From positions 434,001 to 498,000 of the forward strand of contig NZ_KI629782.1 in assembly GCF_000503775.1 (NCBI RefSeq): 64,000 nt of DNA, read 5' to 3'. Made by a program: the position numbers and the translations under genes. Under the pieces are notes generated by a model that saw only the letters and a list, made by a program, of their open reading frames with translations, was not told the origin of the DNA and did no database searches. This document shows positions 11,275 through 59,995 of the stretch, in pieces (positions within the stretch are counted from its first letter, which is position 1; every line of letters starts with the position of its first letter). The stretch is from Brevibacillus panacihumi W25. GTDB lineage: Bacteria; Bacillota; Bacilli; Brevibacillales; Brevibacillaceae.

Positions 11275-11303
11275 TAGTATGTGCCAGGTTATTAAACCAA
11301 TAC
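11275..11303 (-). promoter_or_regulatory. Sigma-G promoter of the spoVA operon
   Basis: The minus strand has CATACTA, a perfect sigma-G -10, with GTATT (4 of 5 to the GHATR -35) 17 bases upstream. It sits 37 bases before the spoVAA start. Bacillus spoVA is sigma-G dependent. Confidence 0.65.
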
Positions 11304-11320
11304 CAAGTAGTGGTCGACGA

Positions 11321-11548
11321 GCTGTAGTGGTGGGGGAGGAAAACGGGGAAACGCTCCAGTGGGTTGGGATCTTTGCTGGGGGTCATTCCTGGCCGCCTCC
11401 CACTCCAAAGGCGGAACCGCGGCCAAAAGCAGCCGACTTCGAAAAAGTCATTCAAGGTTGCCCGCTGAGTGCGTGTTCCGCCTTTTCCGTTCCGGCATGG
11501 TCAAGATCCCAAAACGCCTTCGCTTTTTCCCCGATTTCCACAACCAGC
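11321..11548. repeat. Structured dispersed repeat, copy A
   Basis: A 228-base element whose second copy lies at 14637-14860 in the same orientation. Both begin GCTGTAGTGGTGG. The ends pair with each other: CGGGGAAA with TTTCCCCG, flanked by GGAAA/TTTCC. Next inside is a perfect 10-base stem, TTGGGATCTT with AAGATCCCAA, then GGCGGAAC with GTTCCGCC, and a small GACTT...AAGTC hairpin. The middle, from GGGTCATTCCTGGCCGCCT through GGCGGAACCGCGGCC, is nearly identical in both copies. It lies between the sigF terminator and the spoVA promoter and has no credible protein. It may be a MITE-like element or a structured RNA. Confidence 0.85.
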
Positions 11549-11602
11549 TTTGTCTGCTCTCCCTGCTGCTATCTTTGTAGGTTTCTCTAGGTATGAAATA
11601 CA

Positions 11603-11641
11603 AGAAAAGACACCAGACCAGCATGATCGCTGTCGGTGTCT
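11603..11641 (-). terminator. Terminator after sigF
   Basis: The minus strand reads AGACACC-GA-CAGC, loop, GCTG-GT-CT-GGTGTCT, then TTTTCTTG, 12 bases past the sigF stop. It closes the dacF/spoIIA transcription unit before spoVA. Confidence 0.8.
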
Positions 11642-11652
11642 CTTCATGTTTT

Positions 11653-12408
11653 TCAGTGTTCAATTTGATCTTTGATCGTCTGCAGGATGCGCTTCTCCAG
11701 CCTCGAGACCTGCACCTGGGAAATGCCCAGGCGCTCGGCGACCTCTGACTGGGTTTGATCCTTGTAATACCGCAAGTACACGATTAACTGCTCCCGTTCG
11801 CTCAGTCTGCTGATCGCATCCTTCAATGCGATTTTCTCAAACCATTTGTTAACGCCCTCATCTGCGATTTGATCGATGAGCGTGATCGGATCTCCGTCAT
11901 TTTCGAACACGGTTTCGTGGATGGAAGAAGGTGTCCGGCTCGCTTCTTGGGCAAACACAACATCCTCAGGAGTTATCCCTACCGCTTCGGCTACCTCTGA
12001 AATCGTCGGAGCACGTCCGAATTGCTTGTACAATTCATCCTTGGCACGACGAACCTTGTTGGCGGTCTCCTTGAGCGAGCGACTGACCTTGACGGTGCCA
12101 TCATCCCTCAGAAAGCGCTGGATTTCTCCGATAATCATCGGCACAGCATACGTAGAGAAACGCACATCGTAGGAAAGATCGAACTTGTCGACGGCTTTCA
12201 ACAGGCCGATGCAGCCAATCTGAAACAAATCATCTGCTTCGTACCCACGGTTGATAAAACGCTGGACGACAGACCAGACCAGTCTGATATTGCTGTTCAC
12301 CAAAAGCTCGCGGGCGTCGCTGTCTCCCTCCTGGCTTTTGGCGATCAAGTCTTTTACTTGGTCATTGGTCAGAAATGGTTGACTCGCATTTTTAATATCG
12401 GCACCCAT
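11653..12408 (-). CDS. sigF: RNA polymerase forespore sigma factor F
   Basis: A 251-residue sigma-70 family factor that starts the forespore programme. Region 2 is seen in LLVNSNIRLVWSVVQRFINRGYEADDLFQIGCIGLLKAVDKFD, with the typical DLFQ core. Region 3 and the region 4 helix-turn-helix (SEVAERLGISQVQVSRLEKRIL) follow. It is held inactive by SpoIIAB until SpoIIAA releases it. I took ATG 12408, 8 bases from GGGG, over a GTG two codons upstream that is too close to that site. It begins 11 bases after spoIIAB and ends the spoIIA operon. Confidence 0.97.
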   Translation of the reverse strand: MGADIKNASQPFLTNDQVKDLIAKSQEGDSDARELLVNSNIRLVWSVVQRFINRGYEADDLFQIGCIGLLKAVDKFDLSYDVRFSTYAVPMIIGEIQRFLRDDGTVKVSRSLKETANKVRRAKDELYKQFGRAPTISEVAEAVGITPEDVVFAQEASRTPSSIHETVFENDGDPITLIDQIADEGVNKWFEKIALKDAISRLSEREQLIVYLRYYKDQTQSEVAERLGISQVQVSRLEKRILQTIKDQIEH

Positions 12409-12419
12409 TGGCACTACCC

Positions 12420-12869
12420 CTAATTTTGCAATGCTTTGGCAAACGACAGGCGTTTGGTCAGGCGTACAGTCGTTCCTTTGCCGACAGCGGTCGCCACTTC
12501 CAAAGAGTCCATGAAATTCTCCATAATGGTAAAGCCCATCCCGGAGCGCTCCAGCTCCGGCTTCGTTGTGTACAGCGGCTGCATCGCCTGCTCTACATCC
12601 TCAATTCCTTTACCTTGGTCTTCTACAACGACGTCGACAACCCCATCATTGATCTGCACGGAAATATGTACCACACCCTCTGGATTTTCGTCATATCCGT
12701 GGATGATTGCGTTTGTTACTGCTTCAGAAACGACTGTTTTGATCTCTTCCAGTTCATCCATCGTGATATCCAATTGTGAAATGAATGAAGCTACTGCTAC
12801 GCGGGCAAATGCCTCATTCTGGCTTACCGCAGCAAACGAAACCGTCATAAAATTGCGTTGCGCCTTCAT
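12420..12869 (-). CDS. spoIIAB: Anti-sigma-F factor and SpoIIAA kinase
   Basis: A 149-residue GHKL-fold protein. It binds sigma-F, and it phosphorylates SpoIIAA with ATP. The N-box [13 protein letters not shown] and the G-boxes VEDQGKGI and [10 protein letters not shown] are intact. Its ATG shares one base with the spoIIAA stop (TAATG), so synthesis is coupled to its antagonist. Length and sequence are those of the family and nothing odd is seen. It lies between spoIIAA and sigF as in all Bacillales. Confidence 0.97.
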
Positions 12870-13219
12870 TACGCCACCCCCAGGATCAGCAGTGCTTCTG
12901 CCTCGTTTTCACGAAACTTGATCACCTTGAACAATCCCGACATCTCAAAAATCCGATAGATCGTGGGATTGACTCGGCAGACGTACATTTCACCCGAACG
13001 GGCTGAAATCTGCTTGTATCTGCCAAGGATCACGCCAATTCCTGAACTGTCCATAAACGCCAAATCGGCAAGGCTGAGCACGATATGGCGAATCGAAGAG
13101 GTACGTAGGGCTTCATCCATCTTGCTGCGCAATTCCTCCGCAGTATGATGGTCCAATTCTCCTTGCAAACGGACGACCAAGACATCTTGTCGGGTCTCCA
13201 TCGCGATCCGCAAACTCAT
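12869..13219 (-). CDS. spoIIAA: Anti-anti-sigma factor SpoIIAA
   Basis: A 116-residue STAS-domain protein. Unphosphorylated SpoIIAA displaces sigma-F from SpoIIAB; SpoIIE phosphatase activates it and SpoIIAB kinase inactivates it. The phosphorylated serine is S58 in [17 protein letters not shown], the same position as in B. subtilis. The start MSLRIAMET at ATG 13219 was chosen over a GTG three codons upstream because the GGAG site is 10 bases from this ATG but 1 base from the GTG. A sigma-H promoter match lies about 35-65 bases upstream. Confidence 0.97.
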
Positions 13220-13253
13220 AGCTGACACTCTCCTTCATCCCGTAGTCTTTCTC

Positions 13254-13283
13254 TCATTCTTCTCTTCTTTAACCAATTCCTGC
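13254..13283 (-). promoter_or_regulatory. Sigma-H promoter of spoIIAA-spoIIAB-sigF
   Basis: GCAGGAATT matches the sigma-H -35 RNAGGAWWW exactly. After 12 bases comes GAAGAATGA, one mismatch to RNNGAATWW. Sigma-H (with Spo0A-P) drives spoIIA in Bacillus. No clear 0A box was found beside it. Confidence 0.65.
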
Positions 13284-13298
13284 CAGGCGACAAAAGAA

Positions 13299-13344
13299 CA
13301 AAAAAATCGAGCAGCCACAATCCTTCATTCGAGGCAACTCGATT
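13299..13344 (-). terminator. Terminator after dacF
   Basis: On the minus strand AATCGAG-T-TGCC pairs with GGC-TGCTCGATT, followed by a run of T. It lies upstream of the spoIIA sigma-H promoter, and read-through from dacF into spoIIA is known in Bacillus. Confidence 0.75.
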
Positions 13345-13375
13345 CTTTTCGCGCTTCTGTCGTCATGTCGTCCGC

Positions 13376-14551
13376 TTAATAACGAAGCAACACCTTCTTC
13401 GTTGTCCGCTTGAGAATCTCCCACATGCCTGCCTCATTTACTGCATGCTCCGGATACAGGTCGATGCGGCTTACTTCATTGCCATCCTTGGAGCGAATAA
13501 ATATATGGCCAACTACCTGATCCTTTTGAACAGGCGCATTCACCGTTTTGTTCAAGACCACCTCTTTTTGGAAGTCTTCCGCTGCTTCCCCTTTTTTCAT
13601 CAACAGGCTGACGGCATGCGGTGTTACGATGTTCAACTGAGGTTGTTGGCCTTTGTCTACAGTAATTTGATCGACTGTCTCTCCTTTTTTGTACATCGGC
13701 ATGACTTTGTAATGCGTGAACGCGTAATTAAACATCGTCGTCACATCGTTGTTTCTTGTCTTCACGTCAGGCTCTCCCATGACAACGGAGATGACGCGCA
13801 TATTATTTCGCTTGGCTGTCGCCGTTAAGCAGTATTTGGCTTCTCCGGTATAGCCTGTTTTCAAGCCGTCCACCCCTTGGTAAAAGCGGACGAGACGATT
13901 GGTATTGACCAGCCAGAACGGATTTTCAGAGTCTTTTCGTAAATAGTCCTGATACGTTCCTGTAAATTTGGTGATCTGTTCATGCTTTAACAACTCTTTG
14001 GACATAATGGCAATATCATAGGCAGAGGCGTAATGATTCTCTGCAGGAAGACCATTGGAATTGACAAAATGAGTGTTTTTCATGCCCAATTCCTTGGCCC
14101 GCTCGTTCATCCGTTTGACGAAAGCTTCCTCCGTACCCTCCAGATGCTCCGCCATCGCGACAGAAGCATCGTTGCCGGATGCAATGGCAATTCCTTTGAC
14201 CATATCTTCGACAGTCATTTCCTCGCCGGGCTGCAAGAAGATTTGAGATCCTCCCATCGAAGCTGCGCGTTCGCTTGTCCGCACCATGTCGGTCATCTTG
14301 AGCTCTCCGCGCTCGATCGCCTCCATGATGAGCAATAAGGTCATCACCTTGGTGATGCTGGCAGGCGGCAGCTTCTCGTGCGCATTCTTTTCAAATAGAA
14401 CGGTCCCTGTATCGGCTTCAATCAAAACAGCAGAACGTGCACTCGGCGCAAAATTCATGGGTTCAGGCTTCTCACTGGCTGCAAAAGCCTGAGGAGAAAA
14501 GATGGTGAACAACATCATGATGCATAGAGCGAGATACCCTTTCCGTTTCAT
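13376..14551 (-). CDS. dacF: Forespore D-alanyl-D-alanine carboxypeptidase
   Basis: A 391-residue S11 penicillin-binding protein expressed in the forespore, adjusting cortex or germ-cell-wall cross-linking. It has a signal peptide with likely cleavage after AFA (about residue 24), SITK at 65-68, SGN at 125-127 and KTG at 231-233, then a beta-rich C-terminal domain. It lies directly upstream of spoIIA as in Bacillus. A sigma-F type promoter is 30-58 bases upstream and a GGAGGG site precedes the ATG. Closely similar in design to dacB at 620, but the neighbours show their different compartments. Confidence 0.95.
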   Translation of the reverse strand: MKRKGYLALCIMMLFTIFSPQAFAASEKPEPMNFAPSARSAVLIEADTGTVLFEKNAHEKLPPASITKVMTLLLIMEAIERGELKMTDMVRTSERAASMGGSQIFLQPGEEMTVEDMVKGIAIASGNDASVAMAEHLEGTEEAFVKRMNERAKELGMKNTHFVNSNGLPAENHYASAYDIAIMSKELLKHEQITKFTGTYQDYLRKDSENPFWLVNTNRLVRFYQGVDGLKTGYTGEAKYCLTATAKRNNMRVISVVMGEPDVKTRNNDVTTMFNYAFTHYKVMPMYKKGETVDQITVDKGQQPQLNIVTPHAVSLLMKKGEAAEDFQKEVVLNKTVNAPVQKDQVVGHIFIRSKDGNEVSRIDLYPEHAVNEAGMWEILKRTTKKVLLRY

Positions 14552-14580
14552 AACAGTCTCTTCCCTCCATTCATGGTTTT

Positions 14581-14609
14581 ATTCTCACCAACCGGACAGG
14601 AAAATATTC
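14581..14609 (-). promoter_or_regulatory. Sigma-F promoter of dacF
   Basis: GGTGAGAAT fits the sigma-F -10 GGNNANANT at every fixed position. GAATA, 15 bases upstream, fits GYWTA at 4 of 5. It lies 30 bases before dacF, which is sigma-F dependent in Bacillus. Confidence 0.65.
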
Positions 14610-14636
14610 ACAACTTCTTTGTTTGGTTGTTCCCAT

Positions 14637-14860
14637 GCTGTAGTGGTGGAAAGGAAAAAGAGGAAAACACCTCAGGCCGGTTGGGATCTTCATTGGGGGT
14701 CATTCCTGGCCGCCTCCACTCCAAAGGCGGAACCGCGGCCAAAAGCAGCCGCTTCGAAGAAGAGGCTCAAGGTTGTCCGCTAAAAACGTGTTCCGCCTTC
14801 TCCGTTCCGGCTCGGTTAAGATCCCAAATGCCTTCCGCTTTTTTCCTCTTTTTCCTCAGC
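14637..14860. repeat. Structured dispersed repeat, copy B
   Basis: The second copy (224 bases) of the element at 11321-11548, same orientation, about 3.3 kb away. The outer stem here is GGAAAAAGAGGAAAA paired with TTTTCCTCTTTTTCC, with GCTG and CAGC at the ends. Where copy A has CGGGGAAA/TTTCCCCG, this copy has AGAGGAAA/TTTCCTCT, so both arms changed together and pairing is kept. The TTGGGATCTT/AAGATCCCAA and GGCGGAAC/GTTCCGCC stems are identical to copy A. It sits between the chemoreceptor terminator and the dacF promoter. No protein or insertion-sequence gene is inside. Confidence 0.85.
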
Positions 14861-14885
14861 AAGCTCTTCTTGGTCCCCGTAACAT

Positions 14886-58109: not shown

Positions 58110-59995
58110 ATCGAGTAGGAGGGGGTGACTAACCCCCGTCCTCTCACACCACCGTACGTACCGTTCGGTATACGGCGGTTCATTTAGGTATGACGCAAAT
58201 AGGTGTATCTGTCTGACAAACTCTTCAAACCTTGATTACGCCAGTAAGCATTATTCAATGCTCGGTGAAGAATTGGACTACATGCAATTCGCCATTGTTT
58301 CTTTCGTGAATTGCCCCATTCATAGGCTTTTTCCTTGGGAACTCCTAAGGAGATAAGCCTTTTTACTTTTGTTTTCGGGCGCTTCCACTCTTTCCAGAGA
58401 CACATTCGGAGTCTTCTTCGAATCCATTCGTCAAGATGGCTGAACACCGAAGGGGTATCAGCCAAGGCAAAATAGCCACACCAACCTGTAAGGTACTCAT
58501 TGAGATCGTCAATTCTGTATTCCATTGGGAGTGGTTTAGTGCGGGAGGTGATCTCCCGAATCCTCTGTTTTGCTCGCTTCAGACTATCGTTCGCTATTCG
58601 AATCTTGGGCGATTTGTTCACCGTGAAACTGAAACCAAGAAATTTACGATTCCATGGGCGATCAACGGCGCTTTTCTCCATGTTGACTTTTAGCTTGAGC
58701 TTTCTCTCAATGAACGTGGTCACGGAATCCATCACGCGGATTCCTGCCTTCTTTGACTTCACATAGATGTTGCAGTCATCTGCGTAGCGAAGGAATCGAA
58801 GCCCCCGCTTTTCCAGTTCCTTGTCGAGTTCGTGCAACATGATATTGGATAAGAGCGGACTCAACGGGCCACCTTGCGGCACCCCTTGATCGCTTTCAAT
58901 TTCCATACCATTAACCATAATCCCTGATTCGAGATAGCGTCGGATGAGGGTTAGGATAGTTCTGTCTTTGACATGTTTTGCGATAAGCCCCATAAGTTTA
59001 TCGTGGTTTACCTTATCGAAGAACTTCTCAAGATCCATGTCTACGACCCAACGGTATCCTTCCTCGATGTATGTCTGTGCCTTCTTGACTGCGTCATGTC
59101 CCCGTCTTCTTGGACGGAATCCATGACTATGTTCGGAGAACATAGGATCAAATATCGGAGAAAGAACCTGTGCAATTGCTTGTTGGATGAGACGGTCGGT
59201 CACGGTAGGAATGCCTAATAGCCGAACACCACCGTTCAGTTTCGGGATTTCGACTCGTCGGACTGGCGAAGGTACATAGGTTCCATTCTCCAATGACGCT
59301 CGTAGGGAGTCCCAGTTGGATAAGATATGTTGACGTAGGGATTTTACGGACATACCATCCACACCGTGGCTTCCTTTGTTCTTTTCTACTCGCTTTAGTG
59401 CCAACAGGAGGTTTTCCCGTGACAGCAGTTGTCCCATCATAAAACCAGATATCCTTTCGCGTGAACGTTCTTTCTACTTGTGCCACTCTCTATTCCGCCC
59501 TCTTGAAGTCCCCCATGGATTCACCATTTCCTCCTTCAAGTAAGTCCATCCGAATTGTCTGCATCATCATAAAGAGTGAACGCCTAGCGTCCCGTTCTTC
59601 CTAAATGTTCGGCCCTTCCCGTTTCAAGCGTCCTCTACTCCGGTACTATGGCCTCTGCTGACTCCTGACCGTTCAGTTTCTCCTAGCGGAGAAGGTTACC
59701 ATGAGGGCATGGCGTCCCAGTCAGGTCTCCCCGGGTAAGAACGTTGTCTTTCCCTCCATCCACCTGCTTCATTTACTCCCGATAGCCTTTGGCAACATGG
59801 ACTTCGTCTTGTATGGCAGACTCATCCAGCTATCGTTAGCCTCATATGAAGTTCGTGTTCCTCAGGCCGGAGGTTTGCCGCAGACTTCCTTCAGATTCCA
59901 CCTCGCGGTGGACACCCTTGTCGTAAGCTAGTGGCTACTGTTGCCTTCGCCATTCGGGACTTTCACCCTAGAGACAACGCCCATGCCGGGCACAC
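58110..59995 (-). mobile_element. Complete group IIC intron
   Basis: A 1.89-kb intron on the minus strand. The 5-prime end is GTGTGCCCGGCATGGGCG, as in class C introns. Domain IV holds a 418-residue reverse transcriptase. Just past its stop is a domain V-like hairpin (GAACCGCCGTATACCG ... CGGTACGTACGG), then a domain VI hairpin (GGGGGTTAGTCACCCCC) and the end CCTACTCGAT. It sits 7 bases downstream of the recN terminator stem, the usual target for IIC introns, and the host recN and spoIVB reading frames are whole. Exact ends are within a few bases. Confidence 0.9.
58184..59440 (-). CDS. ltrA: Group II intron reverse transcriptase/maturase (class C)
   Basis: A 418-residue intron-encoded protein. 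RT domains run from about 25 to 265, with GVRLLGIPTVTDRLIQQAI, VVDMDLEKFFDKVNHDKLM, GVPQGGPLSPLLSNIMLHELD and the YADD catalytic box at 219-222. The maturase (X, GIIM) domain follows (LNEYLTGWCGYF...), and the protein ends soon after, with no endonuclease domain. This length and lack of endonuclease are typical of class C. It helps splicing and makes cDNA for retrohoming. No frameshift is seen. Confidence 0.95.
   Translation of the reverse strand: MMGQLLSRENLLLALKRVEKNKGSHGVDGMSVKSLRQHILSNWDSLRASLENGTYVPSPVRRVEIPKLNGGVRLLGIPTVTDRLIQQAIAQVLSPIFDPMFSEHSHGFRPRRRGHDAVKKAQTYIEEGYRWVVDMDLEKFFDKVNHDKLMGLIAKHVKDRTILTLIRRYLESGIMVNGMEIESDQGVPQGGPLSPLLSNIMLHELDKELEKRGLRFLRYADDCNIYVKSKKAGIRVMDSVTTFIERKLKLKVNMEKSAVDRPWNRKFLGFSFTVNKSPKIRIANDSLKRAKQRIREITSRTKPLPMEYRIDDLNEYLTGWCGYFALADTPSVFSHLDEWIRRRLRMCLWKEWKRPKTKVKRLISLGVPKEKAYEWGNSRKKQWRIACSPILHRALNNAYWRNQGLKSLSDRYTYLRHT

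Follow-up and report, generated by a model that had tools for sequence, protein, structure and literature searches.

The window analysed here (the whole 64,000-nucleotide stretch of Brevibacillus panacihumi W25, contig NZ_KI629782.1, positions 434,001 to 498,000) contains two copies of a structured repeat element, one on each side of the dacF, spoIIAA, spoIIAB and sigF genes. The preliminary description of this DNA reported two direct copies in the same orientation with nested stems, which alignment and folds confirm, and also an outer stem in which both arms had changed together between the copies (CGGGGAAA/TTTCCCCG versus AGAGGAAA/TTTCCTCT), which likewise holds. The copies and their outer stems are as follows.

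11321..11549, + strand (the orientation convention used here): copy A, a hairpin of subfamily A, GCTG to AGCT, by alignment and covariance model (180.5 bits; one of the 38 training copies of the model, so that the score is no independent test)
14637..14865, + strand: copy B, a hairpin likewise of subfamily A, GCTG to AGCT, by alignment and covariance model (199.7 bits; also a training copy, with the same limit)
11344..11351, + strand: 5' arm of the outer stem of copy A, CGGGGAAA, from the sequence
11526..11533, + strand: 3' arm of the outer stem of copy A, TTTCCCCG, from the sequence
14659..14666, + strand: 5' arm of the outer stem of copy B, AGAGGAAA, from the sequence
14842..14849, + strand: 3' arm of the outer stem of copy B, TTTCCTCT, from the sequence

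Aligned from 5' to 3', the copies fall into four blocks with identities of 72, 92, 100 and 79%. The extent of 225 bp first given has to be corrected: in many copies of this genome, conservation exceeds the copy bounds by some 11-15 bp on the upstream side and some 40 bp on the downstream side. The element of about 230 bp is intergenic and non-coding and can fold end to end as one branched hairpin. Its foot carries a tag (GCTGYRGTGG...GGGGAG), and its outer stem, of purine/pyrimidine composition, is joined by another stem of the TTGGGACAC / GTGTCCCAA type; the core is asymmetric, AGGGGG...ACTGNCCG and CTGGGTAGG-like motifs being conserved in it, and the apex is a stem-loop. RNA folds of the + strand have z scores of -3.3 (copy B) and -3.1 (copy A), and the minus strand of copy B reaches -4.1; as DNA, the minus strand gives -4.6 for copy B and -1.9 for copy A, and copy A is therefore the weaker hairpin. 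As had been stated, no protein lies inside the element, the three open reading frames (ORFs) of 93-147 aa that overlap the window copies having no Pfam match to E 0.1.

Both copies are real, but the count of two in the stretch has to be corrected to about 67 loci in the genome. The covariance model R1, built from 38 copies, found 83 rows in this genome; once 9 mirror rows are removed, 74 remain, of which 49 exceed 120 bits (full-length); the figure of about 67 follows the merging by hand of seven second halves of intron-split copies, and its weakest few loci are unverified fragments. The model search, proposed earlier as a check, thus found many copies with covariation instead of only two copies. 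R1 matches were present in 26/26 genomes of the genus, four of which carry just 2-5 rows, and in 34/39 genomes of the order, with zero in five; these row counts overstate the copies, because the near-palindrome also scores on the opposite strand. The copies most similar to those of the window's genome were found in genome G016. In an even draw of 398 genomes of the phylum, under stricter filters and with six candidates scored per genome, only the window's own genome was positive.

A match to a catalogued family or insertion sequence (IS) had been named as an outcome that would speak against a new family. None was found in Rfam or in the plasmid and phage collections, the element not having been run against an IS library. 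In Rfam 15, the whole window at gathering scores had only group II intron matches, elsewhere in the window, three loci (L001, L010, L028) had no match to E 5, and seven loci with copies of subfamilies A, B and C had, to E 1, group II intron and cyclic di-AMP (c-di-AMP) matches, none of them on the element; the family, unrecognised before, thus has no Rfam match. A resemblance of GGCGGAACCGCG to T-boxes is unsupported, there being no Rfam T-box match. A phage or plasmid vehicle was rejected, nothing in the plasmid, phage and virus collections being accepted by R1; three IMG/VR contigs share a 20-mer, but none of them scores with the model. Four loci from metagenome-assembled genomes outside Brevibacillus also failed the covariance model. 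Among the matches listed from the open-licence PMC literature, judged by title and start of abstract, no description of this repeat in Brevibacillus was found. In locus L134, a c-di-AMP riboswitch (13577-13711, minus strand) lies just beyond an element copy.

Subfamilies A (that of the window), C and B have a common plan and reading direction, as compared by eye. The window's genome has mostly single A copies. In G007, an A copy is followed by an inverted B copy, and this 520-bp pair occurs in tandem arrays, in which the B partner has a stem sequence unlike most other B copies; A-B pairs were also read in G006 and G023. The array units of G007 (L208 and L271 read as sequence, L209 and L210 as model rows) are very similar, which suggests recent local amplification. 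In G025, the spoIIA genes are preceded by a weak model match (34 bits; L126:1519-1717), possibly a distant subfamily.

Selection on the paired structure, argued earlier from the two copies, is supported by the family as a whole. An early set of 38 copies had covariation at 22/41 pairs, and in 117 distinct copies of subfamily A there was Watson-Crick change on both sides at 38 of 53 pairs, these being the pairs predicted on both strands. Over the 53 pairs, the A cells comprise 5869 Watson-Crick, 60 G-T, 85 A-C and 144 other mismatches; in 19 copies of subfamily B, 15/63 pairs changed on both sides, with 1133 Watson-Crick, 21 G-T, 17 A-C and 25 other cells. The S-adenosylmethionine (SAM) riboswitch used as control (30 loci of the order, 27 distinct) has 691 Watson-Crick, 36 G-T, 0 A-C and 1 other, and differs from subfamily A by Fisher's test (p 3e-12), in alignments fitted to the model for A and made by MAFFT for B and SAM, the cells of related copies being non-independent. 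The arms of the element thus stay complementary through Watson-Crick pairs, G-U being preferred on neither strand, and neither A nor B has the helices of functional structured RNA, tolerant of G-U and not of A-C. Because RNA helices tolerate G-U and those of the element have no such preference, the pairing constraint is best placed at the DNA level. The preliminary choice between an RNA and a mobile DNA hairpin is thus supported as a choice, and the wobble counts favour DNA over RNA.

The orientation of subfamily A follows replication. This was found for 127/130 rows in four complete genomes (G007, G005, G006 and G023). In G007, 40/40 A rows above 140 bits switch strand with the replichore (24/24 loci after 15-kb clustering), and GC skew backs the assumed replichore split at 17/17 and 8/8 fetched loci; rows at E 1e-25 or better do so in G023 (26/27), G006 (25/26) and G005 (36/37), together 87/90, or 68/71 by loci. 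The three exceptions lie 41.3 kb (two) and 100 kb (one) from a contig end, and in G007 a C-like row is also turned, at 41 kb from the end of its contig; by their positions, these may be one old locus near the origin. Among the best rows listed for five genomes, 68/68 loci fit the polarity, as do 14/14 loci among the matches listed for G022. In the window's genome, 63/67 loci (hand-merged) are on the majority strand of their own contig and 29/30 fetched loci have the expected sign of flank GC skew, and the reverse strand of copy A is co-oriented with the fork and with the sig genes. Two of the four off-strand loci carry an IS110 element, for which a local inversion would be a possible origin. 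The C rows of G007 follow A (19/20 rows of 78-95 bits, counted by hand, four of them read as sequence). Subfamily A is stricter in orientation than gene-linked elements, with SAM riboswitches running with the fork at 7/9 among the matches listed in G007 (14 in all) and the nearest left ORF at 19/25 non-IS loci (by hand).

Comparison between genomes gives the history of the copies. At the site after sigF, the model finds the element in 2/26 genomes of the genus (the window's and G016), spoIIAB being present in all 26. The spacer measures 417-420 nt in the two filled genomes and 88-199 nt in 23 others, that of G009 not being measurable, so spacers agree with the model in 25/26 genomes; the junction with G015 is too diverged to be read. 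In 12 pairs of copies at matching places in the window's genome and G016, 21/1205 stem sites and 39/1122 other sites had changed (p 0.009; the alignments contain some slips, and for one pair the comparison covered just 42 stem sites), and 0/21 of the stem changes were two-sided. At a further matching place, the copy in G016 is without its 3' half. Copies at matching places in the two close species are inherited and slowly changing, and since their changes are few and none is two-sided, dispersal is slow or past, and the two-sided changes were not made in place over this span of time. Near 11215 of L263, 5799-5867 of L260 and 4620-4660 of L197, the hairpin at the matching site of a close species is missing a part or one half, a loss that replication slippage at long palindromes would be expected to cause. 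At the point where G006 and G007 have an A-B pair (L266/L217), G023 has about 6.5 kb of other DNA (L267, 10326-16833), a possible insertion hot spot.

Copies of the element are also hosts of other elements, as read within element copies. Nine of the 12 fetched weak-row stretches (L238-L246) hold a group II intron, 98.5-99% identical, and L134 is the tenth; the left junction is identical in 9/9 and the right in 8/8 read, at an apical-loop site in copies that are themselves diverged. The L134 intron has an ORF for a reverse transcriptase (RT)-maturase and a domain V match in Rfam, and Pfam found no endonuclease domain in this ORF. The sense strand of the intron is the fork-facing strand of the element and, by the replication polarity of the element, the lagging-strand template, which is also the reported target of the endonuclease-less intron RmInt1 (PMC8914252). 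The insert in L134 (14234-17496) also contains an IS3-type transposase (ORFs of 94 and 265 aa), and a deleted IS110 remnant lies near 13930-14115. An IS110 element (449 aa, both Pfam domains) was found in five of the first 30 copies, always at one identical site.

L308-L312 (also L015, L018, L020, L023, L024): IS110-bearing copies, insertion in the outer-stem arm, target ...GGAGGAAA / IS / GAAAAAGG...

IS110 elements that target repetitive extragenic palindromes (REPs) were already known (PMC1525189).

Here it is proposed that the family is probably, on balance, a DNA-level hairpin repeat similar to REPs and bacterial interspersed mosaic elements (BIMEs), dispersed in trans through single strands and in one orientation. 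The selected unit would be a hairpin that DNA extrudes while single-stranded, in the simplest case as template of the lagging strand. A trans-acting enzyme would have made new copies by recognising the tagged foot (GCTGYRGTGG, GGGGAG) together with the hairpin and inserting the element in one orientation. This would resemble REP/BIME or IS200-type single-strand transposition, the enzyme being a different one, and resident copies may later have become landing pads for the IS110 element and the group II intron. More tentatively, and with doubt prevailing, the element could represent a class in which a long hairpin is selected on one exposed strand of the fork, each subfamily being tied to one fork polarity, which spread with no detected phage or plasmid vehicle and, in several carriers, with no Y1 machinery, and on which an RNA-guided IS110 and a retrohoming group II intron preferentially land.

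Several observations weigh against the proposed dispersal. No transposase was identified. Subfamily B leans the opposite way (16/19, two-sided p 0.004; counted from 24 scanned loci, with a composite-partner copy and a copy without 3' arm among the exclusions, and with one of the 19 adjoining an A copy and two adjoining each other), and a simple lagging-strand model does not predict this orientation. G002 fits the polarity at 9/12 loci with the origin at the contig start, and at 12/12 at the best rotation. Stems change less than other sites at matching places, which hints at use at each site. The mobility supposed in the preliminary description, and the empty sites and target-site duplications by which it was to be checked, found no clean example, either in G016, at sigF in the 26 genomes or in G006, G007 and G023, where the indels are half-hairpin deletions or replaced segments. 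Both flanks were present for 14 of the 38 copies tested against the fetched G016 sequence, which had largely been picked for carrying elements, and none was a clean empty site; recent movement is therefore not shown.

The main counterpoints are that B leans the opposite way, that empty sites are lacking and that copies at matching places are constrained. They keep alive an unlikely alternative, a chromosome-architecture element in which a protein of replication, segregation or condensation would recognise the hairpin or its asymmetric loops, selection on this function keeping the orientation. KOPS and Chi are polar motifs held in one orientation. The near-absolute polarity of A, beyond that of the gene-linked elements, and the constrained stems fit such a role; however, rows drop to 2-5 in four genomes of the genus and to zero in five of the order, position is not conserved at sigF, the sole site tested across the genus (2/26), and B is polarised oppositely. 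Quasi-palindrome template switching at replication, a mutational process that would keep the arms complementary with no selection on structure, predicts the two-sided Watson-Crick change without wobble preference that is observed and could depend on replication direction, but it is held to be quite improbable, as none of the 21 stem changes at matching places is two-sided, the conserved asymmetric loops have not been erased and dispersal is left unexplained.

A slightly smaller chance still is given to a true REP/BIME moved by a REP-associated tyrosine transposase (RAYT, of the Y1 HUH type), since lost in many species. In its favour, the family has published REP/BIME traits (PMC2817692, PMC3733652), namely tagged hairpins, inverted pairs, tandem arrays and intergenic sites. 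Against it, the Y1 domain PF01797, found in 21/38 genomes of the order, is absent from G016, G006, G023, G012, G008, G009 and G017, which have 24-85 model rows apiece when mirror rows are counted, so that a Y1/RAYT as present mover is unsupported, and the hairpin is far longer than 20-40 bp. The least probable reading is that each copy encodes a structured non-coding RNA or RNA leader. The folds are strong and, on the fork-facing strand, an ORF often follows at 57-198 nt, but G-U is in excess on neither strand, whereas the SAM control has 36 to 0, three loci have no Rfam match to E 5, and orientation tracks replication more than genes, the downstream genes being diverse. The Rfam negatives and the wobble control led to the rejection of an RNA family as the main explanation.

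Similarly to REPs, BIMEs and REPINs (PMC2817692, PMC3733652, PMC3116915), the element is a high-copy intergenic palindrome with a tag at one foot and complementary stem changes, with inverted pairs and tandem composite arrays (found in G007) and as a target for IS elements. The foot tag of REPs is an unpaired GTAG or CGTC; many copies of the element have GCTGTAGTGG, with variation in the GTAG letters. In contrast, the element measures about 230 bp versus 20-40 bp, is branched with conserved internal motifs, is replication-locked in subfamily A, resides in Brevibacillus and relatives, and occurs in several copy-rich genomes without a Y1 transposase that could be its cognate RAYT. Because it departs from REPs in size and in the RAYT, it is REP/BIME-like in working but not shown to be one. 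The IS110 (DEDD, 449 aa) inserts at one site in the repeat, and REP-targeting IS110 elements (PMC1525189, PMC11208160) are comparable, with the difference of a new host repeat and a new target. Intrastrand-triplex repeats (BoxC/TM motifs) are likewise intergenic palindromes with purine/pyrimidine tracts in DNA, but have a 37-nt consensus without strand bias in E. coli (PMC4666352).

The hairpin repeat also shares features with miniature inverted-repeat transposable elements (MITEs), being non-coding, dispersed and under about 300 bp. MITEs such as bcr1 are non-coding, dispersed sequences of 70-300 bp in Gram-positive bacteria. The bcr1 repeat of the Bacillus cereus group is named as a bacterial MITE in PMC3733652. 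No target-site duplication was found for the element at the sites compared, none of which was a clean empty site. Its orientation, in contrast to that of MITEs, is replication-locked, bcr1 being set apart by description and not by sequence. IS200/IS605 elements use folded single-stranded DNA and have a lagging-strand orientation bias and subterminal hairpins. The folded single strand and the lagging-strand bias would be common to both, but the element is one end-to-end hairpin with near-absolute polarity and without a Y1 enzyme in several carriers.

At the locus itself, copy A is flanked on one side by the terminator-like hairpin that follows sigF and on the other by promoter-like boxes of the next operon, with the following features.

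11310..11320, + strand: conserved 5' flank of copy A, GTGGTCGACGA; many copies of the same genome have GTGGTCCACCA-like sequence
11550..11591, + strand: 3' tail of copy A, ending ...GTAGGTTTCTCTAGG, common to many copies, with none seen after copy B
11275..11304, minus strand: promoter-like boxes GGTATTGG / GCACATACTA adjoining copy A and belonging to the next operon, presumably of the sigma-G type
11608..11641, minus strand: terminator-like hairpin 3' of sigF

Of the flanking gene products, SpoIIAA, SpoIIAB and SigF score above their NCBIfam cut-offs. For the product of dacF, a gene named by position, the only matches are to D-Ala-D-Ala carboxypeptidase models and fall short of the NCBIfam cut-off. 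The 204-aa gene after copy A has no NCBIfam match and is taken here to be spoVAA by its position, and the gene before copy B resembles methyl-accepting chemotaxis receptors, below NCBIfam cut-offs. Recombination between copies A and B, earlier thought to abolish sporulation, could in principle delete dacF to sigF. The connection of the copies to sporulation looks incidental, because the genes downstream of copies elsewhere are diverse and the copy after sigF is present in only 2/26 genomes of the genus; a regulon of sporulation genes was rejected from the diverse downstream genes at 30 fetched copies (read by eye). On the minus strand elsewhere in the window, at 58120-59990, another and different intron of group II, with an RT-maturase of 418 aa, lies directly downstream of a terminator-like hairpin, between genes that we take to be recN-like and spoIVB-like. 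Class C introns typically sit just downstream of terminators.

To our knowledge, bacterial repeat families in which changes compensate each other are for the most part either short REPs or classified as RNAs; here, pairing at the DNA level can be told from pairing at the RNA level by simply counting wobbles. The repeat offers fixed, recurring target sites, which makes the target choice of IS110 and group II introns testable in one genus. The observations suggest that the family is an undescribed kind of mobile or chromosome-structuring repeat, and, if its mover is found, it could represent a new route of single-strand, fork-coupled dispersal.

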